Of a stretch of DNA of 64,000 nt, positions 34,285-62,807 are shown piece by piece. Location of the stretch: assembly GCA_027214125.1 (NCBI GenBank), contig JAPWHF010000017.1, positions 1 through 64,000 on the forward strand, read 5' to 3'. The notes under the pieces were generated by a model, which was not told the origin of the DNA, made no database searches, and saw only the letters and a program-made list of their open reading frames with translations. This stretch comes from Zoogloeaceae bacterium G21618-S1 (lineage in GTDB: Bacteria > Pseudomonadota > Gammaproteobacteria > Burkholderiales > Rhodocyclaceae). Each line of letters begins with the position of its first letter. Within the stretch, counting starts at the first letter, position 1. The position numbers and the translations under genes were made by a program.

Positions 34285-35333
34285 GCATGATCAGTATTGC
34301 AGGGCGCAGGATCGGCCAGGGCGAGAGCCCGTTCATCATTGCGGAGATGTCCGGTAATCACAACCAGTCCCTTGACAGGGCGCTGGAGATTGTCGATGCG
34401 GCAGCGAAGGCAGGGGCGCATGGGTTGAAGATACAGACCTATACCCCCGATACGATGACGATTGATCTGGACGAGCGCGAGTTTCATATTTCGGACAGCA
34501 AGAGTCTGTGGGCGGGTTCGTCCTTGTACAAGCTCTATGGCGAGGCATCTACGCCGTGGGCGTGGCATCAACCGATTTTCGATCGCGCCCGGGCGCTCGG
34601 CATGATCCCGTTCAGCTCGCCCTTCGATGAGACGGCGGTCGATTTTCTGGAGTCGCTGAATGTCCCTTGCTACAAGATCGCTTCGTTTGAAAACACCGAT
34701 GTTCAGCTGATCAGACGCGTCGCCGCAACGGGCAAGCCGCTGATCATCTCGACGGGGATGGCGACAGCGGCCGAACTTGACGAGAGCGTGCGGGCGGCGC
34801 GCGAGGCGGGCTGCCGCGATCTGATCCTGCTCAAGTGTACGAGCACGTATCCGGCAACGGCCGAGAACACGAACATCCGGACGATTCCGCACATGCGCGA
34901 GTTGTTCGGCTGTGAGGTGGGGCTGTCGGATCATACGATGGGGTCCGGGGTGTCCGTCGCCAGTGTTGCCCTTGGGGCCACGGTGATCGAGAAGCACTTC
35001 ACCCTGTGTCGCGCCGACGGCGGCGTCGACAGCGCCTTTTCCATCGAGCCGGCCGAGCTGACCGACCTGGTTGAGGCCACGGAGCGCGCCTGGCAGGCGC
35101 TTGGCAGCGTGAGCTACGGCGCCACGGAGGCGGAGCGAAAATCGCTTCAGTATCGCCGTTCACTGTATGTCGTTGAAGCCGTGGCGGCCGGGCAGGTGCT
35201 GACGCGCGAGAATGTCCGCGCCATTCGCCCCGGGCTTGGGCTGCCCACGAAATATCTCGAAGTGCTACTCGGCAAGCGGGTCGCCCGCGATGTGGCGCGC
35301 GGCACGGCGCTGACATGGGATCTGATCGAATGA
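34281..35333 (+). CDS. pseI: Pseudaminic acid synthase
   Basis: A 350-residue NeuB-family enzyme condensing phosphoenolpyruvate with 6-deoxy-AltdiNAc to form pseudaminic acid. ATG 34281 (overlapping the preceding stop) is the natural start. It has FIIAEMSGNHNQSLDRAL at the front, DSKSLWAGSSLYKLYGEA (PseI-type), IASFENTDVQLI, LLKCTSTYPATAENTN, GLSDHTMGSG, VIEKHFTL and a C-terminal SAF domain (RSLYVVEAVAAGQVLTRENV). All synthase motifs are intact, unlike the homologue at 27.3 kb. Confidence 0.93.
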   Translation: MSMISIAGRRIGQGESPFIIAEMSGNHNQSLDRALEIVDAAAKAGAHGLKIQTYTPDTMTIDLDEREFHISDSKSLWAGSSLYKLYGEASTPWAWHQPIFDRARALGMIPFSSPFDETAVDFLESLNVPCYKIASFENTDVQLIRRVAATGKPLIISTGMATAAELDESVRAAREAGCRDLILLKCTSTYPATAENTNIRTIPHMRELFGCEVGLSDHTMGSGVSVASVALGATVIEKHFTLCRADGGVDSAFSIEPAELTDLVEATERAWQALGSVSYGATEAERKSLQYRRSLYVVEAVAAGQVLTRENVRAIRPGLGLPTKYLEVLLGKRVARDVARGTALTWDLIE

Positions 35334-48478: not shown

Positions 48479-49429
48479 ATGACGGCCTCCAATATCGTTC
48501 TGACCGGTGGGACCGGTTTCATAGGGCGGCACTTCGTGCAAGCGGCGCAGGGTCGTGCGATCAGCGCTTTGACGCGTGGGCTGAAGGATCGCTCCGGCTC
48601 ACCCGACAGCGTCAGGTGGGTTACCGGCGATCTCGTCTCGCCCCGGATCTGGGCCTCGCTCTTGACGCCAGGATGTACCGTCATCAATCTGGCCTATCCG
48701 GAAAGCCTGCCGTCCGAGCAGTCGCTTGGGGCAGCGCAAACGATGGTCAGGGCATGCGCCGAGGCGAATGCGGCGAGGCTGATCCACTGCAGTACGGTAT
48801 CGGTCTATGGGCGCACATCGGGCGGGATGATTGATGAGACGACGTCCTGCAACCCGCTGGATGAATATGGGGGCAGAAAGCTGGCCATCGAGGAGGCGAT
48901 TCGCGCGTCGGATTCGGGCGCCTGCGAGGTTGCAGTGCTTCGCCCGGCTGCCGTTTTCGGTGCCGGTGGACAGAATCTCGTCGCTTTGGCGAACAGCCTC
49001 TGCGGCGGCGCGGCCCCGGCCAACTACCTGCGGGCATCGCTGTTTGGTCGGCGGAGGATGCATCTTGTACCGGTGCAGACGGTGGTTGCTGCCTTGTTGT
49101 TTCTGGCCGATTGCGAGCGCCCCATTGGCGGCGAGGTGTTCAATGTGTCCGACGATGACGAGGCGCTGAACAATTTCCGGGATGTTGAGAGGATTCTTGC
49201 CGAGGCGCTGGAGATTCCAGCGCGCAAGCTCCCCGTTCTGCCCATGCCGTCCGTCGTGCTGAAAGCGCTGTTGCACTTGCGTGGGCGAAGCGAGCGAGAT
49301 CCGCATTGCGTGTATCGCGCCGACAAGATTCGGCAATTGGGGTTCGTGTCCCCCATCGATTTCGAAGCCGCGCTTCGATCATTTGCGATGCTTTGCCGAT
49401 CGGACCGAGTCGTGCGAGGACGGCCTTGA
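48479..49429 (+). CDS. NAD-dependent epimerase/reductase (SDR)
   Basis: A 316-residue extended SDR, ATG 48479 with a G-run four bases upstream. It has VLTGGTGFIGRHFVQAA, HCSTVSVYGRTSGG, NPLDEYGGRKLAIEEA (YxxxK) and LRPAAVFGAGG. It resembles 4-ketoreductase/4-epimerase members of polysaccharide loci. The substrate is not determined. Confidence 0.82.
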   Translation: MTASNIVLTGGTGFIGRHFVQAAQGRAISALTRGLKDRSGSPDSVRWVTGDLVSPRIWASLLTPGCTVINLAYPESLPSEQSLGAAQTMVRACAEANAARLIHCSTVSVYGRTSGGMIDETTSCNPLDEYGGRKLAIEEAIRASDSGACEVAVLRPAAVFGAGGQNLVALANSLCGGAAPANYLRASLFGRRRMHLVPVQTVVAALLFLADCERPIGGEVFNVSDDDEALNNFRDVERILAEALEIPARKLPVLPMPSVVLKALLHLRGRSERDPHCVYRADKIRQLGFVSPIDFEAALRSFAMLCRSDRVVRGRP

Positions 49430-49431
49430 AA

Positions 49432-50613
49432 ATGCTTTTGGTCAATCACTTGCTGGACCCCGTGTCGGGCGGGGGGACGGCGGAGCGTACGCTCCAGATG
49501 GCGCGTTTTCTCGCGACGGAAGGTGCCGAATGCACCTTGCTGACGCTGGATATCGGCGGCATTGGCGCAGGGGCGCGCCCGTCGCTGTTCAGCGGCGTCA
49601 AGGTCGTGGCCGTCCCGTGCCTGAACCAGCGCTTCTTCCTGCCTTACCTGCGTTACGCCAAGCTCAAGGCGCTTGTGGAGGACGCCGATGTCGTCTATCT
49701 GTCGGGGCACTGGACACTCCTCAACGCATGGGTTTTTCATGTCTGCAAGCGGCTCGGAAAGCCTTATCTCTTTTGCCCGGCCGGTGCGCTCAAGCCTTTT
49801 GGGCGCTCTCGTGTCTTGAAATGGTTTTACGCCAAGCTCGTCGGCGGCAGCCTGGCGCGATCGGCAGCCGCCTGTGTGGCGGTCACCGAGGGAGAGAAAT
49901 CGGATTTTGCCGAGTGCGGGGTCCCGGCTGAGCGTGTGGTCGTGGTGCCAAACGGGATTGATCCCGGCGAATATGTGCTAGCCAACCCGACAGAGGAGGT
50001 GGCCAGTTTCCGCCGCAAGCTCGGGCTCGATGAGTCGCGCTTCATTCTTTTCCTTGGTCGTTTGAACCCGATCAAGGGGCCGGATCTCTTGCTGGAGGCG
50101 TTTTCACGCTTGCCGCCATCGGTTCGGGATGTCCACCTGGTGCTGGCCGGGCCGGATGGCGGCATGAGAGGGCTTCTTGAGCAGAGCGTCGCCGCGCTCG
50201 GTCTCGACGGACGGGTTCACTTTGCCGGTTACGTCGGTGGCTCAGAGAAGGTCGCCGCGCTGCATGCGGCCACGGTGCTGGCCATACCCTCGCGCCGCGA
50301 GGCAATGTCCATTGTCGTTCTGGAGGGTGGTATTTGCGGCTGCCCCGTAGTATTTACGGATACTTGCGGTCTCGACGAAATTGCACACGACGATGCGGGC
50401 GTCATGGTTCCGGTTTCGGCCGTTGCGCTCGCAGAGGCCATAGAGAATCTGCTTGCGAGTCCTGAAGAGCTGCGTCGCTCCGGCGAGCAGTTGCAGCGTA
50501 TAATCCGTCAGCATTATTTGTGGCAATCACAGGCGCGGCGCCTTCTGGCCTTGGCGGAGCATGTCGCCTCGAATCCAGGCCAGCTAAAAACGGGTAGTCG
50601 TGTCGGGCAATGA
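49432..50613 (+). CDS. Family 4 glycosyltransferase (GT-B)
   Basis: A 393-residue GT4. ATG 49432 is used; TTG 49426 overlaps the previous stop and has GAGGA five bases upstream, so it is a serious alternative. It has HLLDPVSGGGTAERTLQMAR (acceptor side), VVPNGIDPGEY, FLGRLNPIKGPDLLLEAF, and a donor-binding block IPSRREAMSIVVLEGGICG (EX7E-like). It adds a sugar to the lipid-linked intermediate on the cytoplasmic face. Confidence 0.9.
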   Translation: MLLVNHLLDPVSGGGTAERTLQMARFLATEGAECTLLTLDIGGIGAGARPSLFSGVKVVAVPCLNQRFFLPYLRYAKLKALVEDADVVYLSGHWTLLNAWVFHVCKRLGKPYLFCPAGALKPFGRSRVLKWFYAKLVGGSLARSAAACVAVTEGEKSDFAECGVPAERVVVVPNGIDPGEYVLANPTEEVASFRRKLGLDESRFILFLGRLNPIKGPDLLLEAFSRLPPSVRDVHLVLAGPDGGMRGLLEQSVAALGLDGRVHFAGYVGGSEKVAALHAATVLAIPSRREAMSIVVLEGGICGCPVVFTDTCGLDEIAHDDAGVMVPVSAVALAEAIENLLASPEELRRSGEQLQRIIRQHYLWQSQARRLLALAEHVASNPGQLKTGSRVGQ

Positions 50614-52019
50614 TTCGTGTTGTTCTCTTTCTTTTTCTTGCGTCCGTTATTGGGTTGTCGTTTGTCGCGGGTTTGCGCTATTCCGGGCTTTGGGCGGTGT
50701 ATCTCTCTTTTGCCATCGCCGCGAACGCGCTTCTGCTTGCGGGGTTTCGCCGGGGTGCGCTGTACTTTGACACCTTCATCGGCATTTTCCTGTGGCTCGG
50801 CTTCTGGCTGAAGCTCTCCATTCGCGTGGCCTTCCTGGGGGGTGAGTTCAGCGAACCCGTGGGCGCATTCGATGCTTCGCCGCAGTCCTTCGATGCCGTT
50901 CTGCTTGTGGCCACTGCCAGCTTTTCAGCATTGCTGCTCGCAACCTTCGTGCGGGAGCGTTACTTCAGCTATCCGGCGCAGGCTCCTGGTTGCGCGGACT
51001 CCGGACTGTTCCTGTTCTACCGGAAGTATCGCAGCCTTGTCGTGACGGTCTTCCTCGTCACGATTGTGCTTGCGGCGCTGAGCAATGTCTGGCTCGGGAT
51101 CTATCAGCGCGGGATGGTCACGGGGACAGTGCTGCCCTTCGGCCTGAATGGTGTCTACAAATGGGCACTGCAGTTTGGGCTTGCTTCGATCTCGGCGCTG
51201 ATCGTGCGCTTCGAGATCGAGCTTGGACGGCGCTTGACGCCGCTTGCCATCATCGTTCCTGTGTTTGAAGGTTTCATGTCGAATACGGCAATGCTCAGCC
51301 GGGGGATGGTGTTGAACGCATCCGCCATCGGCGTTGGTGGATTGCGAACAATGCTGTCCCGGACAATGAAAATTGGCTCATTGCGCCTTGGTGCGGCAGC
51401 GGCCTTGTTCTGCCTTTTGTTCGTGATATCGGTTCTTGCTGTCAATTATCTTCGTATCGCGGCTTTCAACATGGGTGAAGAGGGTGTTCAGTCACAGACC
51501 GCAGCGGTCACCGGGAGTATGACCACGCCCTTGTTCATTGATCGATGGGTGGGTATCGAGGGTCTGATGGCAGTCGCCTCCTCCGATATAAAGGGGTGGG
51601 ATCTGTGGCGGGCGGCTTGGCAAGAGCGCTTTCAGGAGGGGACGCCAAGTCTTTACGATCAGCGACTCATCGCCTCTCCGTATTTGACCCCGGGGGTCGA
51701 TCGCTCGCGGAATCATTTTGTCTCCTTGCCAGGGATGGTTGCTTTTCTTTACTACCCCGGGTCGATGCTGTTCCTGTGTGCATCGTTGCTCGTTGTAGCT
51801 TGGTCCGCCGCTTTTCTTGAATACCTGACCTACCGATTCTGCGGCGGGAACTGGATTCTCTGTGCGCTGTTTGCACAGGTAATTGCTTTCCGCTACGCAA
51901 GCTTTGGCTACGTCCCCGGGCAGTCATATCTTCTTTTCGGGTCTCTGGTCCTCAACGGTGCTCTGATCCTGCTTGCCGATCGACTGCTGCGGCGTGTTCA
52001 GCAAAATGGTGTGGCATGA
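50610..52019 (+). CDS. Multi-pass membrane protein, candidate Wzy-type polymerase
   Basis: A 469-residue integral membrane protein with about 11-12 hydrophobic helices and a large loop around residues 300-370 (FNMGEEGVQSQTAAVTGSM ... ASPYLTPGVDRSRNHFVSLP). Topology, size and position between glycosyltransferases fit a Wzy polymerase. Family motifs are too weak to be sure, and it has no O-antigen ligase signature. It starts by ATGA overlap with the GT4. Confidence 0.6.
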   Translation: MIRVVLFLFLASVIGLSFVAGLRYSGLWAVYLSFAIAANALLLAGFRRGALYFDTFIGIFLWLGFWLKLSIRVAFLGGEFSEPVGAFDASPQSFDAVLLVATASFSALLLATFVRERYFSYPAQAPGCADSGLFLFYRKYRSLVVTVFLVTIVLAALSNVWLGIYQRGMVTGTVLPFGLNGVYKWALQFGLASISALIVRFEIELGRRLTPLAIIVPVFEGFMSNTAMLSRGMVLNASAIGVGGLRTMLSRTMKIGSLRLGAAAALFCLLFVISVLAVNYLRIAAFNMGEEGVQSQTAAVTGSMTTPLFIDRWVGIEGLMAVASSDIKGWDLWRAAWQERFQEGTPSLYDQRLIASPYLTPGVDRSRNHFVSLPGMVAFLYYPGSMLFLCASLLVVAWSAAFLEYLTYRFCGGNWILCALFAQVIAFRYASFGYVPGQSYLLFGSLVLNGALILLADRLLRRVQQNGVA

Positions 52020-52073
52020 GGCTTTGCGGCAAAGGAACGGCTGGACGGCTCGTCGACAGCAGGAGATGACCGG

Positions 52074-54518
52074 ATGAAGCGATCGGCCTACCTGCTGTTC
52101 CCCTTGGCAGCCTTGTTCAATTCGTTCTCGATGACCGCCTTGCTGCTCGTCTTCGGGCTTTCCGGCCGGGCCGAAATCGCCGCAGACATTGCGCTCATTC
52201 AGGGCGCTTCCCTGGCGCTTTTTTTTGCGTTCTCTGCCAATGCGCGCAATGTCGTGCTGGCCTCGAGCGACGACACCGTTCAACAGGCGGCTTCCGCTCT
52301 GATGGTGACGCGTCTCGCGCTACTGGTGCCGCTGGCGCTTGTCACCTATTTCCTGAGCGTTAGTGTCGGCGGTGCGATTGCCAGCCTCGCCATCACTCTG
52401 ATTGTCCGGCGGGCGTGTGAGTGGCTGGGCGAAATAGCCTTGGCCAGTCACGAGGTTCGTGGCGATACGGCCGCTGCGTCGCGTGTACTCGTTGCCGAGG
52501 GTTTGGCGCTGGCCGCATGTGTTGTCGCGTCATTGATCATGGGCTTTGATCTGGCCTTGAGCGCGATGCCTTGGGCGATTGTTCCACTGTTGTCGCTGCG
52601 TGGCGCAAAGCTATCGCTGCGATCGCAGCATTTCGGCCTCGGCACGCTGTTGCCGCATTTCGGTTCGTCAGGGATTATTGGCGCAAGCGTCTTCGTGTTC
52701 CGGCTGTCTGTGACCTTGCTTGCTGGAAAAGCGCTGGCGGGTACGTTGTTTACGGCATTTGCGGTCGGCAGCCTTGTTCCGACGGTGTTCGGGCAGGCGC
52801 TTGCGCCAACGCTTATTCGTCGATTTGGCCAAAGAAAATTGCCCTATCAGTTCGCGGTCGCGCCCCTTGGCATGATCCTCGCCGGGAGCCTGCTCGCCAT
52901 TGTAGCGGCCTGGTTTCCGCATGTACTGCCAGAGGGCGGGCTGCCGCCTGTATTCTGGCTGGCGACGGGGCTCTCGGTTGCTGGCGGCGCTGTCATGACT
53001 GTTGCGATGCTACTGCGTACCCGACTGCTTCACGAGGGCGGCGGGCGGGACGCTTTTGGTCCTGATCTCCTTGCTAATGTGCTTATTGCGACGTGCGTCC
53101 CCTTTGTCTTTTACGTGTTTGGAGCGGCATCGCTGGCCGGGCTCTATCTTCTGAGTGCAGTTATCAACCTTGGCTTCATTCTGAGTGCCAGGCGCTGGTT
53201 TTTGGTTGAAGGCGAGCGTCGAAAATGGTTTCTGATCGGCCTTCCGGTATTGCTGGTTTTTCCCGTCTTCTTCCAGCTGGATGGCGGTTTGTTCAGGGAT
53301 ATAGCGTTTGTTTTTGATGCTCAGGGGGCAATCAAGAAGCTCCCTTTGCCGGCATCCGTCATCGTCATGTTCCTGGGGATTGCTGTGCTGGGGAATTATT
53401 GGCAGGCATCGAGAGCGCTGACGACTTTGTTTTTCTCGTCACTCCTGTTTGTCCTCACCTCGTTGGTTGCCGCAGATGGGAGTGCTTATCAAGAAGGGGC
53501 CAAACTGATCCTCCTTGCCCAGTTTCTGCTGCCGATGTTCGGGCTGGTTCTTGGTGAGATGTATGGAATGACCGACAATAACGGCCGGTCCCTGCAGTGG
53601 GCCGCGTGCGGGATGCTGCTTGTGGTGCTGCCAGCGCAGTTGGTATCGACCTGGAGTGATGGCTATACGGTTTTGAGCCCGCATGTATTCCTGTTTAGTA
53701 TCTATCAACACCTTCAGTATTTTCCAATGGTGGTGTCGGCGTTGGCCATTGCGACCGCAATTGCGCTTTGGGACAAGACAACTCTTGAAAAGCGGGCAGT
53801 TTTCGTCCTGATGCCAGTGGCAGCCATTTATCTGTTTTCGACACATTCGATGGCGGCGGTACTCGGTCTTGTCCTGGCGCTAGCCGGGTTCGGTTATTAC
53901 CACCTGCGAAAAGAGGCTGGCCGCGCCCAGACCGCGCTCTTGCTGATTGTGGTTTTGTCATCGCTTGCGACGTTCAGTGTCGCCAGGGAATCGGGATGGC
54001 TGGCGAGTCAGCTAGTACCGGATGGGCAGGTCGTTGAACAGGAAACATGGCAGACAAAACTCTCGACATCCTCTGAATCTAGCGCCGCCGCCGTGCTGCA
54101 AGGCGTCGTCGAACGCTTCGAGCATTGGCGCTTTTTCTATCATGGTGTGCTGGAGTCGCCACACAGCTTTCTTGCTGGACATGCGACGCCTCCCGATCGG
54201 GAAAAGCATCCGAGTGCGCACAATTACTGGCTCGATACCGCATACAATTTTGGAACGATATCGCTTATTCCTCTGGCCGGAATGTTGATTTGGACGCTGC
54301 GTGCGCTATGGGTCGGGCGCGATGAATTGTCCAAGGATTCGATACTTTTCGGGTTGGCGCTTGCGGTTCTCTATTTGCTGTTTTTCGAGAACATGCTCAA
54401 GGTCGGCATGCGGCAGCCCTATCCCGGGATCATCACATTTTTCCTGTGGGGCTTGCTCATCGCCCGTTTGCGCCTACACGGTAGCCGTATTGATTTGACG
54501 GAGCCGAGAACCGTATGA
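52074..54518 (+). CDS. Apparent flippase (Wzx-like) / O-antigen polymerase-ligase fusion membrane protein
   Basis: An 814-residue membrane protein, about twice the size of either family. AGGAG precedes ATG 52074. Residues ~1-385 form a run of 12 or so helices in the style of MATE/Wzx flippases (KRSAYLLFPLAALFNSFSM, FRLSVTLLAGKALAGTLFTA, LVPTVFGQALAPTLIRRFG). Residues ~395-814 form a second polytopic unit. It carries a periplasmic loop and the Wzy/WaaL-type signature HNYWLDTAYNFGTISLIPLA (His716) as seen in O-antigen ligase/polymerase domains, then helices to the end. The frame is unbroken, so it is not a simple sequencing join of two genes. Alternatives: two domains with other transport roles. 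Confidence 0.7.
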   Translation: MKRSAYLLFPLAALFNSFSMTALLLVFGLSGRAEIAADIALIQGASLALFFAFSANARNVVLASSDDTVQQAASALMVTRLALLVPLALVTYFLSVSVGGAIASLAITLIVRRACEWLGEIALASHEVRGDTAAASRVLVAEGLALAACVVASLIMGFDLALSAMPWAIVPLLSLRGAKLSLRSQHFGLGTLLPHFGSSGIIGASVFVFRLSVTLLAGKALAGTLFTAFAVGSLVPTVFGQALAPTLIRRFGQRKLPYQFAVAPLGMILAGSLLAIVAAWFPHVLPEGGLPPVFWLATGLSVAGGAVMTVAMLLRTRLLHEGGGRDAFGPDLLANVLIATCVPFVFYVFGAASLAGLYLLSAVINLGFILSARRWFLVEGERRKWFLIGLPVLLVFPVFFQLDGGLFRDIAFVFDAQGAIKKLPLPASVIVMFLGIAVLGNYWQASRALTTLFFSSLLFVLTSLVAADGSAYQEGAKLILLAQFLLPMFGLVLGEMYGMTDNNGRSLQWAACGMLLVVLPAQLVSTWSDGYTVLSPHVFLFSIYQHLQYFPMVVSALAIATAIALWDKTTLEKRAVFVLMPVAAIYLFSTHSMAAVLGLVLALAGFGYYHLRKEAGRAQTALLLIVVLSSLATFSVARESGWLASQLVPDGQVVEQETWQTKLSTSSESSAAAVLQGVVERFEHWRFFYHGVLESPHSFLAGHATPPDREKHPSAHNYWLDTAYNFGTISLIPLAGMLIWTLRALWVGRDELSKDSILFGLALAVLYLLFFENMLKVGMRQPYPGIITFFLWGLLIARLRLHGSRIDLTEPRTV

Positions 54519-55765
54519 AGGTCCTGATCGTGACGCAGTATTTCTGGCCGGAGAGCTTCGGCATTACGGCGCTCGCGCGCTCGATGCAAGAGCGCGGCGT
54601 GACCGTCACCGTCTTGACCGGGCAACCGAATTATCCCGGCGGCGTGGTCTTCCCGGGCTATGCGGCGTGGCGCACCGCTCGGGAGACGTTTAGCGGCGTT
54701 GAGATCATGCGGGTGCCGCTCGCGCCACGTGGTATCAAGTCCGGACTGCGGTTGGCGGTGAACTACCTGTCCTTCCTGGTCAGTGCTTCACTCCTGGGGC
54801 CGTGGATGCTGCGGGGTCGTCAGTTCGACGCGGTTTTCGTGTATGCCCCGTCGCCTCTCCTGCAGGCATTGCCGGCGGTGCTTCTTTCCTGGTGGAAGCG
54901 TGCGCCGTTGGTCGTCTGGGTGCAGGATTTGTGGCCTGAAAGCCTGTCTGCGACGGGCTTCGTGCGAAACAAGCGGATACTCGGTCTGGTCGGTTCGGTG
55001 GTGCGGTACATTTATCGGCGTACCGACCTGATACTCATTCCATCGGAGGCGTTCCGGGAGCCCGTCCAACGCCTGACGTCCTCGAAGGGGCGCATCACCT
55101 ACTATCCGAACGCATTTGTCGAAGAACCTGTTGAGGCGAGCACGCCCTCGCCGGCCTTGAGCGCCCTGCTTGCGGAGATTGCCGCGTCGTCGTCGGTCGT
55201 CTTTGCCGGAAATCTGGGCACAGCGCAGTCGTTGGAGACGATGCTGGACGCGGCAGAGCGTGTTGCGGAGCGAGGGCATCCCGTTCGCTTCTTCATCGTG
55301 GGGAGCGGCAGTCTGTCGGGGTGGCTTGCCGAAGAGGTGGCGCGAAGGGGGCTGACGAACGTCTTGCTGCCGGGGCGTTTTCCGTCCTCGGCGATGATGT
55401 CGATCTACGCGTCGGCAACGGCGCTTCTGGTGAGTCTGCGCGATGAGCCGATTTTCGCGCAGACGATCCCGAGCAAGGTTCAGGGCTATCTGGCAGCAGG
55501 AAAGCCGATCATTGCCTCGCTCAATGGTGAAGGGGCGCGCGTCGTCGTCGAGGCGAAGGCGGGCGTGGCGTGTCCTGCGGGCGACAGCGAGGCGCTTGCC
55601 GAGGCCGTTGTTCATATCTGCAGGCTGGATGACGACGCAAGGCGTGAAATGGGCGAAAATGGGCGCCGCTATGCAGAAAAGCATTTTGCACTTGCCGGGC
55701 TGACGGATGATCTGATCGCCCGGTTCGAGGCACTATCGGCACAACGGAGGGAATCGTCGCGATGA
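54515..55765 (+). CDS. Family 4 glycosyltransferase (WbuB/WbnH-like)
   Basis: A 416-residue GT4: ILIVTQYFWPESFGITALAR-type start (KVLIVTQYFWPE), VTVLTGQPNYPGGVVFPGY, WVQDLWPESLSATGFVRN, VFAGNLGTAQSLETMLDAAE, and an LPGRFPSSAMMSIYASATAL block with IPSKVQGYLAAGKPI. This is the WbuB/FnlC-associated L-FucNAc/L-QuiNAc transferase style. It overlaps both neighbours by ATGA, immediately before the genes for such a sugar. Confidence 0.9.
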   Translation: MKVLIVTQYFWPESFGITALARSMQERGVTVTVLTGQPNYPGGVVFPGYAAWRTARETFSGVEIMRVPLAPRGIKSGLRLAVNYLSFLVSASLLGPWMLRGRQFDAVFVYAPSPLLQALPAVLLSWWKRAPLVVWVQDLWPESLSATGFVRNKRILGLVGSVVRYIYRRTDLILIPSEAFREPVQRLTSSKGRITYYPNAFVEEPVEASTPSPALSALLAEIAASSSVVFAGNLGTAQSLETMLDAAERVAERGHPVRFFIVGSGSLSGWLAEEVARRGLTNVLLPGRFPSSAMMSIYASATALLVSLRDEPIFAQTIPSKVQGYLAAGKPIIASLNGEGARVVVEAKAGVACPAGDSEALAEAVVHICRLDDDARREMGENGRRYAEKHFALAGLTDDLIARFEALSAQRRESSR

Positions 55766-56619
55766 GAATTCTGGTGCTTGGCGTCTCGGGCATGCTGGGT
55801 AACGCCATGTATAGGACGCTTTCGGAGAACGCGGACCTTGAGGTCTGGGGTTCGGTCCGCTCCTCTGGCGCAAAGCGCTATTTTGCCGAGAGCTTGAGGG
55901 ATCGGATTCTGGCCGGCGTCGATGTGGAGAACATGGACTCGCTCTCGGCGCTGTTCGAGCGCGTGCGTCCGCAGGTGGTCGTCAACTGCGTGGGGCTTGT
56001 CAAGCAACTCGTAGAGTCGAATGACCCTTTGGTTGCGCTTCCGATCAATGCCATGCTGCCACACCGTCTGTCACGATATTGCGCCCTTGTCGGCGCCCGT
56101 CTCGTACATTTCAGCACGGACTGCGTCTTCAGTGGCAAGCGCGGTGGCTACCGCGAATCGGACGTTTCCGATGCACAAGACCTGTATGGAAAATCGAAGT
56201 TTATTGGCGAGGTGTCGGACGACGCGCATGCGCTGACGCTCCGGACCTCGATCATCGGGCACGAGCTCGCAAGTCACCATGGTTTGGTCGAGTGGTTTCT
56301 GCATCAGGAAGGAAGCGTTCGCGGGTATCGCCGAGTCGTTTTTTCAGGGCTTCCGACGGTCGAGCTTTCGCGGGTCGTTCGCGATGTCGTGATTCCGCAG
56401 GCGGGGCTGTCGGGCGTCCATCATGTCGCCTCGGCTCCGATCACGAAGCATGATCTGCTTGAGCTGGTGGCGAAGGCGTATGGCAAGGCGACTCGCATTG
56501 AGCCCGATGATTCGGTGGTCATTGATCGCACGCTGGTGGCGGATCAATTCAGGGATTTGACGGGTTATGTCGCACCAGACTGGCCCGAACTCGTGCGGCG
56601 CATGAAGAATTTCAGCTAA
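55762..56619 (+). CDS. RmlD-type reductase of the UDP-L-QuiNAc/L-RhaNAc route (WbvR-like)
   Basis: A 285-residue RmlD-family SDR: ILVLGVSGMLGNAMYRTLS, VVVNCVGLVKQLVESNDPL, LVHFSTDCVFSGKRGGYRES, DLYGKSKFIGEV and LRTSIIGHELASHHGLVEWF. It lacks the cupin extension of FnlB/WbjC-type reductases (normally ~370 residues). It therefore fits WbvR, which with a 4,6-dehydratase/epimerase and a 2-epimerase yields UDP-L-QuiNAc. The two partner genes follow directly. The family is certain; the exact sugar is inferred. Confidence 0.82.
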   Translation: MRILVLGVSGMLGNAMYRTLSENADLEVWGSVRSSGAKRYFAESLRDRILAGVDVENMDSLSALFERVRPQVVVNCVGLVKQLVESNDPLVALPINAMLPHRLSRYCALVGARLVHFSTDCVFSGKRGGYRESDVSDAQDLYGKSKFIGEVSDDAHALTLRTSIIGHELASHHGLVEWFLHQEGSVRGYRRVVFSGLPTVELSRVVRDVVIPQAGLSGVHHVASAPITKHDLLELVAKAYGKATRIEPDDSVVIDRTLVADQFRDLTGYVAPDWPELVRRMKNFS

Positions 56620-56629
56620 GAGGTAGTTT

Positions 56630-57640
56630 ATGTTTTCTGGCAAGACACTCATGATTACCGGCGGGACGGGGTCCTTCGGTAACGCCGTGCTTACCCGCTT
56701 TCTTGACACCGCAGTGAAGGAAATACGGATCTTCAGTCGGGACGAGAAGAAGCAGGAGGACATGCGGATCGCGCTGGCGAACGACAAGGTCAAGTTCTAC
56801 ATCGGCGACGTGCGTGACAGCGACAGCCTCGCGCAGGCCATGACCGGGGTCGACTATGTGTTCCATGCCGCGGCGCTCAAGCAGGTGCCGTCCTGCGAGT
56901 TCTATCCGATGGAGGCGGTCCGCACCAACGTGCTGGGTACCGAGAATGTGCTGAATGCGGCGATTGCGCGTGGGGTGAGCCGGGTGGTGGTGCTCAGCAC
57001 CGACAAGGCGGTCTACCCGATCAACGCCATGGGCATTTCCAAGGCGATGGCCGAGAAGCTGATGGTGGCCAAGTCGCGCACCATTCCTGCCGGTGGCACG
57101 GTGGTCTGCGCGACCCGTTATGGCAACGTGATGGCCTCGCGGGGTTCGGTGATACCGCTCTTTGTCGATCAGCTTCGGGCGGGAGAGCCGCTGACGCTAA
57201 CCGATCCGAACATGACGCGTTTCTTGATGTCGCTGGAGGATTCGGTGGATCTGGTGCTGCATGCGTTTGAGCATGCGGAGCAGGGTGACATCTTCATTCA
57301 GAAAGCGCCGGCCTCAACCGTAGGCGATCTGGCGCAGGCCTTGAAAGAGCTGCTGGGAAGTGCGAATCCGGTGAAGATCATCGGTACGCGTCACGGCGAA
57401 AAGCTCTACGAATCGCTAGTGTCTCGTGAGGAAATGGCCAAGGCCGAGGACATGGGCCGCTACTATCGCATCCCGGCCGATAACCGCGATCTGAACTACA
57501 AGAAGTATTTTGTCGAGGGCGAGCAGCGTATTTCGGAACTGGACGACTATACCTCCCACAATACCGAGCGGCTGGATATCGCCGGGGTCAAGACTGTGCT
57601 GCAGTCACTTGACTACATTCGCGAGGTGTTGCGTGCTTAA
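56630..57640 (+). CDS. UDP-GlcNAc 4,6-dehydratase/5-epimerase (FnlA/WbjB/WbvB type)
   Basis: A 336-residue soluble SDR of the PseB/FnlA group. The opening FSGKTLMITGGTGSFGNAVL and IFSRDEKKQEDMR are diagnostic. It has AALKQVPSCEFYPMEAVRTN and STDKAVYPINAMGISKAMAE (Met in place of the usual Tyr, Lys kept), TRYGNVMASRGSVIPLFVDQ and IGTRHGEKLYESLVS. It starts L-sugar synthesis by dehydrating UDP-GlcNAc with C5 inversion. It is closer to FnlA than to PseB, but could in principle also feed pseC, since no separate PseB is present in the window. AAGAGG lies 5-10 nt upstream. Confidence 0.9.
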   Translation: MFSGKTLMITGGTGSFGNAVLTRFLDTAVKEIRIFSRDEKKQEDMRIALANDKVKFYIGDVRDSDSLAQAMTGVDYVFHAAALKQVPSCEFYPMEAVRTNVLGTENVLNAAIARGVSRVVVLSTDKAVYPINAMGISKAMAEKLMVAKSRTIPAGGTVVCATRYGNVMASRGSVIPLFVDQLRAGEPLTLTDPNMTRFLMSLEDSVDLVLHAFEHAEQGDIFIQKAPASTVGDLAQALKELLGSANPVKIIGTRHGEKLYESLVSREEMAKAEDMGRYYRIPADNRDLNYKKYFVEGEQRISELDDYTSHNTERLDIAGVKTVLQSLDYIREVLRA

Positions 57641-58760
57641 AGTCATGACGCTCGTCGGCACCCGGCCCGAATTGATCAAGATGAGCCGGGTGATCGCCGA
57701 GCTCGACCGCCAGGTCGAGCATGTGTTGGTGCACTCTGGTCAGAACTACGATTTCGAGTTGAATCAGGTGTTCTTCGACGATCTGGATATCCGCAAGCCA
57801 GACCACTTTCTCGGTGCCGCTGGTGAGAATGCCGCCCAGACCATCGCCGAGGTGATCGCCAAGGCAGATGCGGTGTTCGAGCGCGAGAAGCCCGATGCTC
57901 TCATGCTCTATGGCGACACCAATACTTGCCTCGCGGTGATTCCCGCAAAGCGTCGAAAAATTCCGGTTTTTCACATGGAGGCGGGCAACCGTTGCTTTGA
58001 TCAACGGGTGCCTGAAGAGCTCAACCGCAAGGTGTTGGACCATCTTTCCGACATCAACATGGTACTGACCGAGCACGCCCGCCGGTATCTGATTGCCGAG
58101 GGCATTCGACCCGAGACGATCATCAAGACCGGTTCGCACATGGAGGAGGTGCTCAACTACTACATGCCGCGCATCGAGGCGTCGGATGTGTTGGCGCGCG
58201 AAGGTCTGGACAGCGGAAAGTTTTTCATTGTCAGCGCGCATCGTGAAGAGAACGTCGATACCCCGGAGAATTTGCGCGACTTGCTTGAGTCCTTGCGTGG
58301 ACTCGTCGATACCTACGGTTTTCCGGTGATCGTTTCGACTCATCCGCGCACCCGAAAGCGTCTGGAGGCGCTTGGGGAATCGCTTGAGCATCCCTTGATC
58401 CGGTTCTCGAAGCCTTTCGGCTTGCTCGATTACATCAAGCTGCAGATGTCAGCTTTTTGCGTGTTGTCGGATAGCGGCACGATTACCGAGGAGGCATCCC
58501 TGCTCAATTTGCCGGCGGTGACCCTGCGTAATGCGCATGAGCGTCCGGAGGGTATGGATGAAGGTACGCTGATCATGAGCGGCCTCAAGCGTGCTGCGGT
58601 TCTGGAAGCAGTGAAGGTCATCACATCGCAGCACGACCGGGCGCGACGCGTGATTCCGGTGGTGCCTGACTATCAGGCGGGGCCGGTGTCAAAGCAGGTT
58701 GTGCGCGTTGTTCTCAGCTACACCGACTACGTCAACCGTACGGTGTGGCGCAAGACCTGA
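57633..58760 (+). CDS. UDP-N-acetyl sugar 2-epimerase (FnlC/WbjD/WbvD type)
   Basis: A 375-residue non-hydrolysing 2-epimerase. GTG 57633 (LKVMTLVGTRPELIKMS, matching the usual family N-terminus) has GAGGTG at good spacing and overlaps the previous stop; ATG 57645 is an alternative. It has VHSGQNYDFELNQVFF, ALMLYGDTNTCLAVI, VFHMEAGNRCFDQRVPEELN, FIVSAHREENVDTP and VLSDSGTITEEASLL. It ends the trio by inverting C2, giving UDP-L-FucNAc or UDP-L-QuiNAc. Confidence 0.9.
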   Translation: MLKVMTLVGTRPELIKMSRVIAELDRQVEHVLVHSGQNYDFELNQVFFDDLDIRKPDHFLGAAGENAAQTIAEVIAKADAVFEREKPDALMLYGDTNTCLAVIPAKRRKIPVFHMEAGNRCFDQRVPEELNRKVLDHLSDINMVLTEHARRYLIAEGIRPETIIKTGSHMEEVLNYYMPRIEASDVLAREGLDSGKFFIVSAHREENVDTPENLRDLLESLRGLVDTYGFPVIVSTHPRTRKRLEALGESLEHPLIRFSKPFGLLDYIKLQMSAFCVLSDSGTITEEASLLNLPAVTLRNAHERPEGMDEGTLIMSGLKRAAVLEAVKVITSQHDRARRVIPVVPDYQAGPVSKQVVRVVLSYTDYVNRTVWRKT

Positions 58761-58765
58761 CTGCC

Positions 58766-59725
58766 ATGCGGGTTCTGGTGACTGGGGCGAGTGGTTTCGT
58801 CGGGCGGGCGGTGCTCAGCCGTTTGCTGCGCGAGGACGGTGTGGTGGTGCGGGGTGCTTACCGAACGTTGCCGGCGTCGGTAGATGACCGGATTGAACCA
58901 TGCCTGGTGGGCGACCTTGGCCCTGATACCGATTGGCTGCCGGCGTTGGTCGATGTTGATGTGGTGATCCATTGCGCGGCGCGGGTGCATGTCATGCATG
59001 ACACCGAGTCCGACCCGCTGGCGGCGTATCGCCGAAGCAATGTCGACGGCACGCTGCACCTGGCGCGTTCGGCGGCGCGGGCGGGGTGTCGTCGTCTGGT
59101 TTTCGTCAGTTCGATCAAGGTTAACGGTGAGGCCACCGAACCGGGGCATCCGTTTGCTGAAGCGACGCCGCCGATGCCATGCGATCCCTATGGTGTGTCG
59201 AAGCTTAAAGCCGAGCAGGGCCTGCTCGATCTGGCGCGTGAGACCACGTTGGAGGTCGCGGTAGTGCGCCCGCCGCTAGTTTATGGCCCGGGTGTTAAAG
59301 CCAATTTCCGTTCGATGATGAGTTGGCTGTGCCGAGGCATACCGCTACCTTTCGGTGCGATCGACAATCGTCGCAGCCTGGTTGGCGTGGATAATCTGGC
59401 CGATCTGGTGGTCTGCTGTGCCGGTCACCCGGCCGCGGCGAATCAGGTGTTTCTGGCGGGCGATGGCGAGGATTTATCGACCACGGCCTTGTTGACGCGT
59501 GTGGCCGACGCACTGGGGCGGCGTGCGCGCTTGCTGCCGGTGCCGCCGAGCTGGATTTCGACCGTTGCCCGCTTGCTGGGGCGCCAGGCGCTGGCGACCC
59601 GCTTGTGTGGGTCGCTTCAGGTTGATATCAGCAAGGCACGGACTATGCTCGGCTGGATGCCGCCGGATTCGGTGGACGTTGGCTTGAAGAAAGTCGCGGC
59701 CGATTATCTGGCCCACCGCCAATGA
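58766..59725 (+). CDS. UDP-4-keto-sugar reductase/epimerase (WbpK/WbpV/WreQ-like SDR)
   Basis: A 319-residue extended SDR: RVLVTGASGFVGRAVLSRLL, VVIHCAARVHVMHDTESDPL, RLVFVSSIKVNGEATEPGHP, DPYGVSKLKAEQGLL and VVRPPLVYGPGVKANF. The combination is typical of the reductases beside WbpL- and WbpM-type genes that make UDP-D-FucNAc or UDP-D-QuiNAc from the keto intermediate. ATG 58766 follows the previous stop by 5 nt. Confidence 0.85.
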   Translation: MRVLVTGASGFVGRAVLSRLLREDGVVVRGAYRTLPASVDDRIEPCLVGDLGPDTDWLPALVDVDVVIHCAARVHVMHDTESDPLAAYRRSNVDGTLHLARSAARAGCRRLVFVSSIKVNGEATEPGHPFAEATPPMPCDPYGVSKLKAEQGLLDLARETTLEVAVVRPPLVYGPGVKANFRSMMSWLCRGIPLPFGAIDNRRSLVGVDNLADLVVCCAGHPAAANQVFLAGDGEDLSTTALLTRVADALGRRARLLPVPPSWISTVARLLGRQALATRLCGSLQVDISKARTMLGWMPPDSVDVGLKKVAADYLAHRQ

Positions 59726-59759
59726 TGTTCTCCCTCTTTCAAGCGATTGCGATCCGCCC

Positions 59760-60779
59760 ATGAGTGCCTGGTTCTTGCCCCTGATCGTGCTCGGCGCGTT
59801 CTTTTTGACCGGACGACTGCGTCGCTACGCGCTGGCGCGCAGTCTGATGGACGTGCCGAACGCGCGCAGCTCTCATGTCACACCGACGCCGCGTGGCGGT
59901 GGCGTGGCGATCGTGCTGTGTTTTCTGGGTGTGTTGCCGCTGTTGGTGGTGCTGGGCGCGCTGGAGGCTTCCGGTGCCTGGGCGATGGCCGGGGCCGGGG
60001 GATTGGTGGCGCTGATCGGCTTTCTGGACGACCACGGCCATATCGCGGCGCGTTGGCGCTTGTTGGCGCACTTCGGCGCGGCGGTCTGGGCGCTGGTTTG
60101 GTTGCAGCCGGCTGGGGTGATGCCTGCCGGTGTGCCTGGCAGCGCCAGCGGTGTGAGCATGGTGCTGGCCGCGTTGTATCTGGTGTGGATGCTCAATCTG
60201 TACAACTTCATGGATGGCATCGATGGCATTGCCAGTGTCGAGGCCATCTGCGTTTGCGGAGGCGGTGCGCTGCTCTACTGGCTCCAGGGTGCGAATGCCG
60301 ATGCCTTGGTGCCCTTGTCGCTGGGCGGAGCGGTGTTGGGGTTTCTGGTGTGGAATTTTCCGCCGGCCAAGATTTTCATGGGCGACGCCGGCAGTGGTTT
60401 TCTGGGCATCACGCTGGGCGTACTGTCCTTTCAGGCGGCGGCGACTTCGCCGCCGCTGTTCTGGAGTTGGACGATCCTGCTCGGGGTGTTCATCGTCGAT
60501 GCGACCTACACCTTGATCCGGCGCCTGCTGCGCGGTGACCGCGTGTACGAAGCCCATCGCAGTCATGCCTATCAGCATGCGTCTCGTCGGGCGGGCCGGC
60601 ACTTGCCGGTGACTCTGGCCGTGGCGGGAATCAATCTGCTCTGGTTGTTGCCGTTGGCGGTGGGGGTTGCGCGTGGGGTGCTTACGCCCTGGATGGGACT
60701 GGCCGTCGCCTATTTACCCTTGGTGGTTTTGGCGGTTCGATTGCGGGCCGGCATGCCGGAAGACGCGTCCGCCGCCTGA
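59760..60779 (+). CDS. Undecaprenyl-phosphate sugar-1-phosphate transferase (WecA/WbpL family)
   Basis: A 339-residue, ~10-helix polyprenyl-phosphate N-acetylhexosamine-1-phosphate transferase. Motifs in order: MDVPNARSSHVTPTPRGGG, ALIGFLDDHGHIAARWRLL (Mg-binding DD), NLYNFMDGIDGIASVEA, and FPPAKIFMGDAGSGFLGITL. It lacks the C-terminal part of MraY and is shorter than WecA, fitting WbpL/WbcO. It starts glycan synthesis by loading a 6-deoxy-HexNAc phosphate, presumably the product of the neighbouring SDR plus WbpM-type pair. Confidence 0.92.
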   Translation: MSAWFLPLIVLGAFFLTGRLRRYALARSLMDVPNARSSHVTPTPRGGGVAIVLCFLGVLPLLVVLGALEASGAWAMAGAGGLVALIGFLDDHGHIAARWRLLAHFGAAVWALVWLQPAGVMPAGVPGSASGVSMVLAALYLVWMLNLYNFMDGIDGIASVEAICVCGGGALLYWLQGANADALVPLSLGGAVLGFLVWNFPPAKIFMGDAGSGFLGITLGVLSFQAAATSPPLFWSWTILLGVFIVDATYTLIRRLLRGDRVYEAHRSHAYQHASRRAGRHLPVTLAVAGINLLWLLPLAVGVARGVLTPWMGLAVAYLPLVVLAVRLRAGMPEDASAA

Positions 60780-60844
60780 GTGTGGTGCTGACTGAGACTG
60801 CCGGCATTTTAGCGGTTTGAGGCGGCTGCCTGCCGACATGCCGA

Positions 60845-60850
60845 TATAAT
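60845..60850 (+). promoter_or_regulatory. Isolated perfect -10 hexamer before the WbpM-type gene
   Basis: TATAAT occurs 76 nt upstream of ATG 60927 in the 147-bp gap, the largest in the last 8 kb of the locus, amid G/C-rich sequence. No -35 box of good spacing is seen. A separate promoter for the dehydratase-apaH pair is possible. Confidence 0.35.
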
Positions 60851-60926
60851 GCGGAAACCCTCCGTCACTGTGATGTCGTGCCAGGTCCGGCGCGGCGAGC
60901 GCTCCGCCAGGATTTGAGATTCGATC

Positions 60927-62807
60927 ATGCCTTTTCGCACCGCACTCATTGTTCTGTTTGACCTGGTGACCGCGGCCGTGGCGTGGTCGCTCGGCTTCAT
61001 GTTGCGTTTCAATTTCGAATGGCCGGCAGGCTATGAGTGGAAGTTTTCGGTCAGTTTGCTGGTGTTGCTCGTGGTGCATGCGGCGGCCTGCCGCTGGGCG
61101 GGCCTGTATCGCGGCATGTGGGTGTTTGCCAGCTTGCCGGATCTGAAGCGGGTGCTGAAGGCAGTTGGGGTCTCAGCGGTGGCCTTGCTGGTGATGCTGG
61201 CGGTCGACCGCACGCTGCCGGGCATCCCCCGGTCGATGGTGATTCTCTACCCTTTGTTGCTGATCACCATCATGGGCGGTGGGCGCGCCACCTGGCGGAT
61301 GTGGAAAGAGCATCGGTTGTATGGTGATTTGCGTGCGGCCGGCAAGCCCGTCGTGGTGGTTGGCGCCGGCACCGGTGGCGCGATGCTGGTGCGTGAACTG
61401 GAGCGCAGCCCGGACTGGCGGGTCGTGGCGCTGGTTGACGACAATACCGCCAAGCAGGGGCTGGAACTCTATGGATGTCTCGTGGCTGGAGGGATCGATG
61501 CTTTGCCGCAGGTGCTGCAGGACTTCAAGGCGCAGCATGTGATTCTGGCCATGCCGTCGGCAGCGGGCGATGCCTTGCGACGTGCGGCCGATCTGGCGGT
61601 GCGCGCGGGTGCGCACACCTTTACGGTGCCGGGTCTGGAAGATCTGATGAGTGGCAAGGTGGCGATCAATGCCATGCGCCCGGTCGAGATCGAAGACTTG
61701 CTTGGCCGCGAGGCGGTGTCGATTGACTCCGCGCATGTGTACACCATGGTGGGTGGCAAGACGGTGCTGGTGACAGGCGCGGGCGGTTCGATCGGTAGCG
61801 AGCTGTGCCGGCAACTGGCCAAGTTTGCGCCAGCGCGGCTGGTGCTGGTCGAAGCCAGCGAGTTTGTGCTCTACACCATCGAGCAATGGTTCGCAAATCA
61901 TCAGCCCGACATCGCCATCGTCCCGCTGGCCGGTGATGTCAAGGATGCGCAGCGTCTCGATGAGATTTTTGCCCAGTGGCAACCGGCCCTGGTTTTCCAT
62001 GCGGCGGCCTACAAGCATGTGCCGCTGATGGAGGTGGGCAATGCCTGGCAGGCGGTGCGCAATAATGTGTTTGGCACCTTGCAGGTGGCGCAATGCGCCC
62101 AGCGTCACGGCGCTGAGCGCTTCGTGCTGGTGTCCACCGACAAGGCGGTGAATCCGACCAATGTGATGGGCGCGACCAAGCGGCTGGCCGAGATGGTGTG
62201 CGAGGCGCTGCACTCGCAGGGCGGCACGACACAGTTCGGGATGGTGCGTTTTGGCAATGTGCTGGGCAGCACGGGCAGCGTGATTCCGAAGTTTCAGGAG
62301 CAGATTGCGCGGGGCGGGCCGGTGACGGTCACCCACCCGGAAATCACCCGCTACTTCATGTCGATTCCCGAAGCCGCGCAGCTGGTCTTGCAGGCGGCGA
62401 GCATGGGGCGGGGGGGCGAAATTTTTGTGCTCGACATGGGCGACCCGGTGCGTATCGTCGATCTGGCGCGCAACATGATCCGCCTGTCGGGCTATGCCGA
62501 AGACGAGATCCGTATCGAATTCAGTGGTTTGCGTCCAGGCGAAAAGCTCTACGAAGAGTTGCTGACCGACGCCGAACAAACCCGCGAAACCCCGCATCCC
62601 AAACTGCGCATTGCGCGGTCACGGCCGGTGGCACCGGACTTCCTGAGCGTGCTTGGCGCCTGGCTGGACACCCGTGGGCCGGTGGCGGACGAGGCGGTGC
62701 GTCAGGGCTTGCTGCGATGGGTGCCGGAGTATGTGCCAATGCAAGGGCGACCGGCCTTGAAAGTGGTGGCAGGCGCGCTGACCGATAGCGACGTCCGCCG
62801 GGCCTGA
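60927..62807 (+). CDS. Membrane UDP-GlcNAc C6-dehydratase (WbpM/FlaA1/CapD family)
   Basis: A 626-residue protein with four N-terminal helices (~8-120), a Rossmann-like CoA-binding middle (VVVGAGTGGAMLVRELERS) and a C-terminal SDR dehydratase (from ~270: TVLVTGAGGSIGSELCRQLA, FHAAAYKHVPLMEVGNAWQA, LVSTDKAVNPTNVMGATKR with the Ser-Met-Lys triad, RFGNVLGSTGSVIPKFQEQI, and FSGLRPGEKLYEELL). It makes UDP-4-keto-6-deoxy-GlcNAc for QuiNAc or FucNAc. It is followed 5 nt later by apaH. Confidence 0.93.
   Translation: MPFRTALIVLFDLVTAAVAWSLGFMLRFNFEWPAGYEWKFSVSLLVLLVVHAAACRWAGLYRGMWVFASLPDLKRVLKAVGVSAVALLVMLAVDRTLPGIPRSMVILYPLLLITIMGGGRATWRMWKEHRLYGDLRAAGKPVVVVGAGTGGAMLVRELERSPDWRVVALVDDNTAKQGLELYGCLVAGGIDALPQVLQDFKAQHVILAMPSAAGDALRRAADLAVRAGAHTFTVPGLEDLMSGKVAINAMRPVEIEDLLGREAVSIDSAHVYTMVGGKTVLVTGAGGSIGSELCRQLAKFAPARLVLVEASEFVLYTIEQWFANHQPDIAIVPLAGDVKDAQRLDEIFAQWQPALVFHAAAYKHVPLMEVGNAWQAVRNNVFGTLQVAQCAQRHGAERFVLVSTDKAVNPTNVMGATKRLAEMVCEALHSQGGTTQFGMVRFGNVLGSTGSVIPKFQEQIARGGPVTVTHPEITRYFMSIPEAAQLVLQAASMGRGGEIFVLDMGDPVRIVDLARNMIRLSGYAEDEIRIEFSGLRPGEKLYEELLTDAEQTRETPHPKLRIARSRPVAPDFLSVLGAWLDTRGPVADEAVRQGLLRWVPEYVPMQGRPALKVVAGALTDSDVRRA

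Follow-up and report, generated by a model that had tools for sequence, protein, structure and literature searches.

A recurrent single-chain join of a probable, distant Wzx-like domain and a Wzy_C superfamily domain in a predicted surface-glycan gene cluster

A standing question is whether Wzx, Wzy and ligase proteins form a complex, and whether the lipid-linked sugars, once flipped, diffuse between them or are passed from one to the next. A 64,000-nucleotide stretch of DNA (the window) raises it in an unusual form, as one of its genes had been predicted to encode a Wzx-type flippase and a Wzy/WaaL-type polymerase or ligase in a single chain. The frame in question starts with ATG and runs for 814 codons with zero internal stops. 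When hydropathy was averaged over 13 relatives, 12 hydrophobic segments were found at the threshold used in residues 1–387 and a further 12 in residues 388–814 (13 in the N half at a laxer threshold; 12 + 11 for the window protein alone). The original prediction of one unbroken frame holding two polytopic units was therefore borne out. The features of the gene are as follows.

52061–52065, + strand: AGGAG in the sequence, a probable ribosome binding site, 8 nt ahead of the ATG
52074–54518, + strand: open frame for the fused two-domain membrane protein, 814 aa, the fusion being intact in 13 genomes
52074–53234, + strand: N half, residues 1–387, 12 predicted helices, N-in/C-in, a probable distant Wzx/MOP-like flippase domain
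53235–54515, + strand: C half, residues 388–814, a Wzy_C/O-antigen ligase superfamily domain, 12 predicted helices
54219–54221, + strand: His716 codon, within SAHNYWLD; the residue aligns with the ligase-like proteins' HN motif
54411–54413, + strand: Arg780 codon (RQ pair); all 13 fused proteins have this residue

Searches of Pfam and NCBIfam with the whole protein and with each half returned no family above its cut-off, and comparison of the fused protein with PHROGs gave nothing useful. No match was obtained by tblastn with P0001 against plasmids and phages, or with one relative of the fusion against plasmids.

The fused gene sits in a tight run that comprises a GT4 glycosyltransferase, a polytopic partner protein (P0002), the fusion, a second GT4 enzyme, RmlD-, FnlA- and WecB-like enzymes, an epimerase, a WecA-like enzyme and a Polysacc_synt_2 protein. 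These genes, together with a more distant exporter, are listed below.

21474–23228, + strand: ABC exporter of the MsbA/PglK/HepA type, the second candidate lipid flippase seen in the window
49306–50613, + strand: GT4 glycosyltransferase, 4-bp overlap with the next gene
50610–52019, + strand: P0002, polytopic partner protein, 469 aa, unclassified, with a late long loop that appears to be as in Wzy proteins
54515–55765, + strand: GT4 glycosyltransferase, best NCBIfam family WcaI, 4-bp overlap with the end of the fused gene
55762–58760, + strand: RmlD-like, FnlA-like and WecB-like enzymes
59760–60779, + strand: WecA-like initiating sugar-phosphate transferase
60927–62807, + strand: Polysacc_synt_2 dehydratase

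The make-up of this cluster suggests an O-antigen or a related surface glycan. The WcaI match of the downstream GT4 enzyme reached 141.5 bits against a cut-off of 276. We take the three enzymes at 55762–58760 to be responsible, probably, for UDP-L-FucNAc synthesis and the dehydratase to be WbpM-like; the block at 54515–62807 presumably resembles the P. aeruginosa O11 block, with the names WbuB, WbpL and WbpM. Two NeuB-family synthases are also encoded in the window (27327–28328 and 34167–35333), so nonulosonic acids may be part of a glycan produced here. A profile search of the window turned up no ordinary ligase-like gene. The same genome has more Wzx and Wzy_C genes on contigs C22 and C55, and given these Wzx genes and the ABC exporter a flippase could come from elsewhere.

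The join is not confined to this genome. It was found intact, in one frame, in 13 genomes that span 10 families and two or more classes (G000, G006, G076, G155, G165, G201, G208, G428, G544, G735, G752, G890 and G1214, of which G890 belongs to another class). The 12 other intact frames share 30–96% identity with that of the window over the whole protein, the closest named genome found being Denitromonas halophila SFB-3, whose protein is 96% identical. Because 13 genomes hold the fusion in one frame, it is not an assembly artefact, and the caveat in the original prediction that related genomes might show two separate genes misjoined here is excluded by these 12 independent frames. The gene is thus a real, recurrent and unusual domain join in a single chain. 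As a side observation, a relative of the fusion in the one-contig genome G002 (L005) is disrupted by frame changes.

With the protein or family alignments as queries, matches came from 7 of 200 relatives (E 1e-3), 7 of 399 genomes at the level of the order (E 1e-10), 6 of 369 at that of the class (E 1e-5) and 8 of 398 at that of the phylum (E 1e-3); three side groups contributed 1 of 3, 5 of 78 and 1 of 17. These tallies count the query's own genomes wherever they were drawn, and the order, class and phylum searches scored at most two candidates per genome. Other matches came from G077, G251, G816, G870, G896, G1002, G1070, G1099, G1112, G1140 and G1146, and matches of the same partial kind from a second place in G155 and from one viral contig; all of these start at query position 362 or later and so cover the C half. 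An N half without a C half was not matched in any of these searches, the pieces of the broken G002 gene excepted. The distribution of the fusion appears patchy, like that of O-antigen genes moving between strains.

The second unit had been said to carry an O-antigen ligase/polymerase signature, with HNYWLD at His716, and this was upheld by profile–profile comparison. Against nine ordinary ligase-like proteins the C half gave 97.8% (E 1.1e-12, 316 columns), and 97.0% (E 7.8e-11) when 13 C halves were used, with nothing returned against the Wzx, P0002 and WecA-like families. The ligase profile directly finds 4 of 13 C halves. The ligase-like family profile in turn matches PDB 7tpg, a "polysaccharide polymerase/ligase", at E 8.5e-26; the HN motif of 7tpg aligns with that of the ligase-like proteins, and theirs with His716–Asn717. 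A PDB sequence search with the C-half profile itself gave nothing. As regards HMM models, Wzy_C is the one sensible match, though a weak one, in that residues 388–814 of the window protein score 17.4 bits and do not reach the Pfam cut-off of 31.7. At E up to 10, Wzy_C was listed for 9 of the 14 C halves, the best of them at 7.9e-9, and whole-genome searches scored the fusions of G201, G208, G000 and G735 at 26.2, 25.9, 20.2 and 18.7 bits, all under the cut-off, with the fusions of six other genomes searched not listed at E 0.01.

Hydropathy over 13 members predicts nine helices for the C half, then a long loop containing SAHNYWLD, then three helices. His716 is kept in 10 of the 13 fusions and replaced by Arg in G428, Phe in G1214 and Tyr in G890, while Arg780–Gln781 is invariant in all 13. 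The fused relatives without the histidine are those at loci L019, L081 and L082. A possible rule that His716 is lost solely where P0002-like genes exist was set aside, as the counts (3 of 11 against 0 of 2) are too few. From its sequence, the C half can be assigned firmly to the O-antigen ligase/polymerase (Wzy_C) superfamily.

The gene directly upstream had been proposed as a separate Wzy candidate. It does encode a polytopic protein, P0002, but a Wzy family match is absent, no Pfam or NCBIfam family being found, so that the label is one of topology only. No similarity was seen between P0002 and two E. coli sequences, WzyE and WbbH; tblastn against plasmids returned no match and a PDB sequence search with the P0002 profile gave nothing. 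The P0002 family is well conserved and tied to the fusion, with conserved stretches around LLSRGM and DRWVG. P0002-like proteins were found in 10 of 13 genomes tested, being missing in G077, G165 and G201, and such genes also adjoin the fusion in G1214 and G890. Overall, 11 of the 13 fused genomes have one: it is adjacent in eight (G000, G006, G076, G428, G544, G735, G890 and G1214), about 6 kb away in G752, distant in sequence and 1 kb from an ordinary Wzx gene in G208, and on a different contig, beside a solo C half, in G155.

Ordinary Wzx genes were sought with a profile around 11 fused loci, leaving out G076 (a 5.8-kb contig) and G006 (a near twin of the window). They occur 0.2–9 kb from the fusion in six of these (G165, G208, G428, G735, G890 and G1214). 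Because some had been in the profile, all six were rechecked separately: five pass the Pfam cut-off, and the sixth, beside the G735 fusion, has no Pfam match and scores E 3.5e-13 with a profile built without that gene. No ordinary Wzx gene was found in the stretches scanned around the fusions of G000, G155, G201, G544 and G752. The fusions of G155, G165, G201, G208 and G890 have ordinary ligase-like genes no more than 10 kb away. In G208 and G890 one stretch combines the fusion with a ligase-like gene, a P0002-like protein and an ordinary Wzx. In G201, where WecA-like and Polysacc_synt_2 genes directly follow the fusion, neither another Wzx nor a P0002-like gene was found in 60 kb. The presence of a nearby Wzx (6 of 11 loci), of a second polytopic protein (11 of 13 genomes) and the loss of the histidine (3 of 13) count against a simple role of the fusion as sole Wzx plus Wzy.

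For the reaction of the C half, polymerase takes about half of our belief, ligase about a third and some other transfer reaction the rest. Polymerase is favoured where a P0002-like gene is absent and a ligase-like gene is near, namely in G165 and G201. In members with P0002 the C half might be a ligase, a second polymerase or, in the three members lacking the histidine, non-catalytic. Should P0002 be the cluster's Wzy, the C half might transfer the completed chain to lipid A-core or a different acceptor, as WaaL does, downstream of a flippase N half. Such a division of labour would suit the P0002-like genes of the 11 genomes, eight of them adjacent, the distant G208 relative placed 1 kb from an ordinary Wzx, the ligase-like character of the C half's matched relatives and the failure to find an ordinary ligase-like gene by profile in the window. 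It sits poorly with the five genomes that have such a gene within 10 kb of the fusion, and with G165 and G201, where the missing P0002-like gene leaves the C half and the ligase-like gene as the sole polymerase candidates in the scanned stretch. We regard it as rather doubtful.

The assignment of the first unit, described originally as MATE/Wzx in style, is less direct. None of 11 members matched the Pfam or NCBIfam flippase models, and one gave a weak match to a GPH symporter (E 0.0088). With the same curated models, five of seven ordinary Wzx-type neighbours pass the Pfam cut-off and two do not, one of the latter matching NCBIfam WzxE at 1.3e-21. A PDB sequence search with the N-half profile gave nothing, and the structure prediction that had been suggested proved uninformative, as AlphaFold2 run on the N half with a two-row alignment returned a model with a pLDDT of 40.8, which was unusable.

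Hydropathy and charge over 13 members predict 12 helices with alternating Lys/Arg, from which both ends are predicted to be cytoplasmic. Helix spacing correlates with that of the averaged Wzx family at r 0.71 (p 0.01 by permutation), with the Wzx values drawn from the first 12 of 14 segments at a laxer threshold than for the N half; the corresponding values are 0.47 for MFS, which spacing does not exclude, 0.15 for P0002 and −0.14 for the C half, and single Wzx sequences range from 0.86 to −0.53 (39 listed). The two six-helix groups of the N half resemble each other in spacing (r 0.86). A helix-by-helix register test against Wzx gave p 0.03–0.04 with one Wzx helix centre hand-set at 258, for which later spacing analysis gave 267.

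In profile–profile comparisons, the significance of the N-half match varies with the depth and choice of the Wzx set. It was E 0.024 against 10 Wzx, 0.099 against 13 (a reversed decoy scoring better, at 0.024) and 4.8e-4 against 40, where none of 50 permuted-and-reversed decoys was as good and 3 of 50 forward-permuted ones were. Addition of E. coli WzxE, RfbX, WzxC and MurJ to the 40 gave a set of 43 Wzx plus MurJ, which hhalign matched at 55% (E 1.2e-4) with 177 columns in register. As controls for this set of 44, the reversal gave E 0.15, a set of 12 E. coli MFS proteins 0.25 and the reversed MFS set 0.031, and decoys were as good in 0 of 60 permuted-and-reversed and 1 of 60 forward-permuted cases. 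The strictest set, 39 sequences whose Wzx nature is independent of our own profile, gave 20% and E 0.0011 over 348 columns (22–383 against 30–417), nearly the entire half; among the controls the worst was a comparison of the C half with its reversed self, which reached the same E 0.0011 over 13 columns. Twenty random subsets of 22 of the 44 scored 18.9–43.1 forward and 14.3–23.7 reversed, with some forward alignments out of register. When an N-half HMM was run against single Wzx sequences with the HMMER composition correction on, Wzx ranked under other membrane proteins (AUC 0.32); uncorrected, the AUC was 0.79 against other membrane proteins and 0.64 against own reversals, with inconsistent register.

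At the level of residues, Pro245 is invariant in the fusions, and 41 of 44 Wzx/MurJ sequences have Pro there. The WzxE structure report (PMC11706664) describes the arginines of that protein, with cavity positions R44, R143, R239 and R282. An equivalence of the invariant Arg210 with WzxE Arg239 was dropped, as the alignment offsets Arg210 by one helical turn. Taken together, topology and profile comparison support a Wzx style for the first unit, with imperfect controls, but the curated models fail to recognize it; we hold with fair assurance that the N half is a distant Wzx-like domain, though not an established member of the family.

Alternatively, the N half could have 12 helices but no kinship to flippases, and serve as a scaffold or transporter holding the C half or P0002 in place. 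The silence of the flippase models, the GPH-symporter match, the MFS spacing correlation and the ordinary Wzx genes near six of 11 fusions would all be at home there, but the profiles prefer Wzx/MurJ over the MFS proteins and their reversal, and the spacing likewise fits Wzx better than MFS, such that we consider a scaffold or transporter improbable.

Several relatives differ in domain content. In G077, as read from the longest frames, a solo C half overlaps a WzxE-like gene, the separate arrangement to be expected if the N half is a flippase. In G165 (L007:619–4320), a 1233-aa frame joins a GT2 glycosyltransferase domain to a Wzx-like half and a Wzy_C-type half, and its long loop holds an insert without a Pfam match. 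A solo C half that is 31% identical lies at L029:4929–6185 on the viral contig IMGVR_UViG_3300015050_000930, where neighbouring frames look, by eye only, like a methyltransferase and an integrase; it is possibly a phage-borne changer of surface glycans. G155 has a second, solo C half (L091:613–3539) beside a P0002-like gene near a contig start, and its fused copy is at the end of another contig, so the two may be one locus; tblastn did not find an N-half remnant ahead of the solo C half.

Midpoint-rooted trees of the two halves agree on G000/G006/G076 (support 100 and 100) and on G544/G890 (100 and 97), and disagree on G735, which goes with the G000 group in the N-half tree (100) and with G208 in the C-half tree (79). 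The G155 solo groups with G155 and G428 (70), and the G077 and viral solos with G165 (92). This nesting of solo C halves among fused ones suggests, with modest support, that the solo forms came from fused ones.

On balance, we take the fusion to be a natural join in which a flippase domain, distantly Wzx-like and of the MOP superfamily, is linked to a Wzy_C superfamily domain, probably acting by flipping and then use of the flipped product as donor. The WecA-like enzyme and the neighbouring glycosyltransferases would build an undecaprenyl-diphosphate-linked oligosaccharide, which the N half would most likely move to the periplasmic face. The C half may then accept the flipped lipid-linked sugar as donor via the His716 loop, the glycan being extended or attached, and a hand-over between the halves can be envisaged. 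A stricter version, which we put forward tentatively, is a one-chain assembly line in which the N half flips the repeat unit and hands it to a polymerase C half, the steps being physically coupled and, in G165, the GT domain acting first.

An accessory system, in which the fusion and P0002 serve another lipid-linked glycan (primer, cap or side branch) alongside an ordinary set of Wzx, Wzy and WaaL, would explain why G208 and G890 hold the full set of genes in one stretch; the five loci without an ordinary Wzx found near the fusion speak against it, and we think it unlikely. Chance read-through or an assembly error that joined two genes, for which the frame-broken gene of G002 might be cited, is already refuted by the 12 further intact frames at 30–96% identity and has a negligible probability.

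If the join of a Wzx-like and a Wzy_C-type domain is as we read it, its occurrence in distant bacteria means that two normally separate surface-sugar steps may be the work of one protein. A natural fusion fixes the stoichiometry of its parts and offers a single protein where hand-over could be tested; the GT2–flippase–polymerase chain of G165 extends the coupling to the cytoplasmic side. The 13-sequence family also allows loss of the motif histidine (three cases) to be compared with the presence of partner proteins. For Wzy itself we refer to a review (PMC12004945). In open-licence literature no paper was found naming a Wzx–Wzy or flippase–ligase fusion, which is no proof of absence.

Compared with known systems, the fused protein shares with the Wzy_C/O-antigen ligase superfamily (7tpg) profile similarity at about E 1e-12, a long loop between helices 9 and 10 and the HN motif, but differs in its added 12-helix N-terminal unit, in scoring below the Pfam cut-off and in the absence of the histidine from 3 of 13 fused relatives. 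With the Wzx/MOP flippases (WzxE, PDB 9g95; MurJ) the N half has in common 12 helices, a predicted N-in/C-in orientation, similar spacing, weak profile similarity and the invariant Pro245; unlike them, it has no curated-model match, is joined to a second enzyme and shows no clear match to the WzxE arginines. The pathway of separate Wzx and Wzy proteins likewise has both kinds of unit in a single cluster that includes a WecA-like initiator, whereas here they form one chain, which in G165 also holds a GT2 domain.
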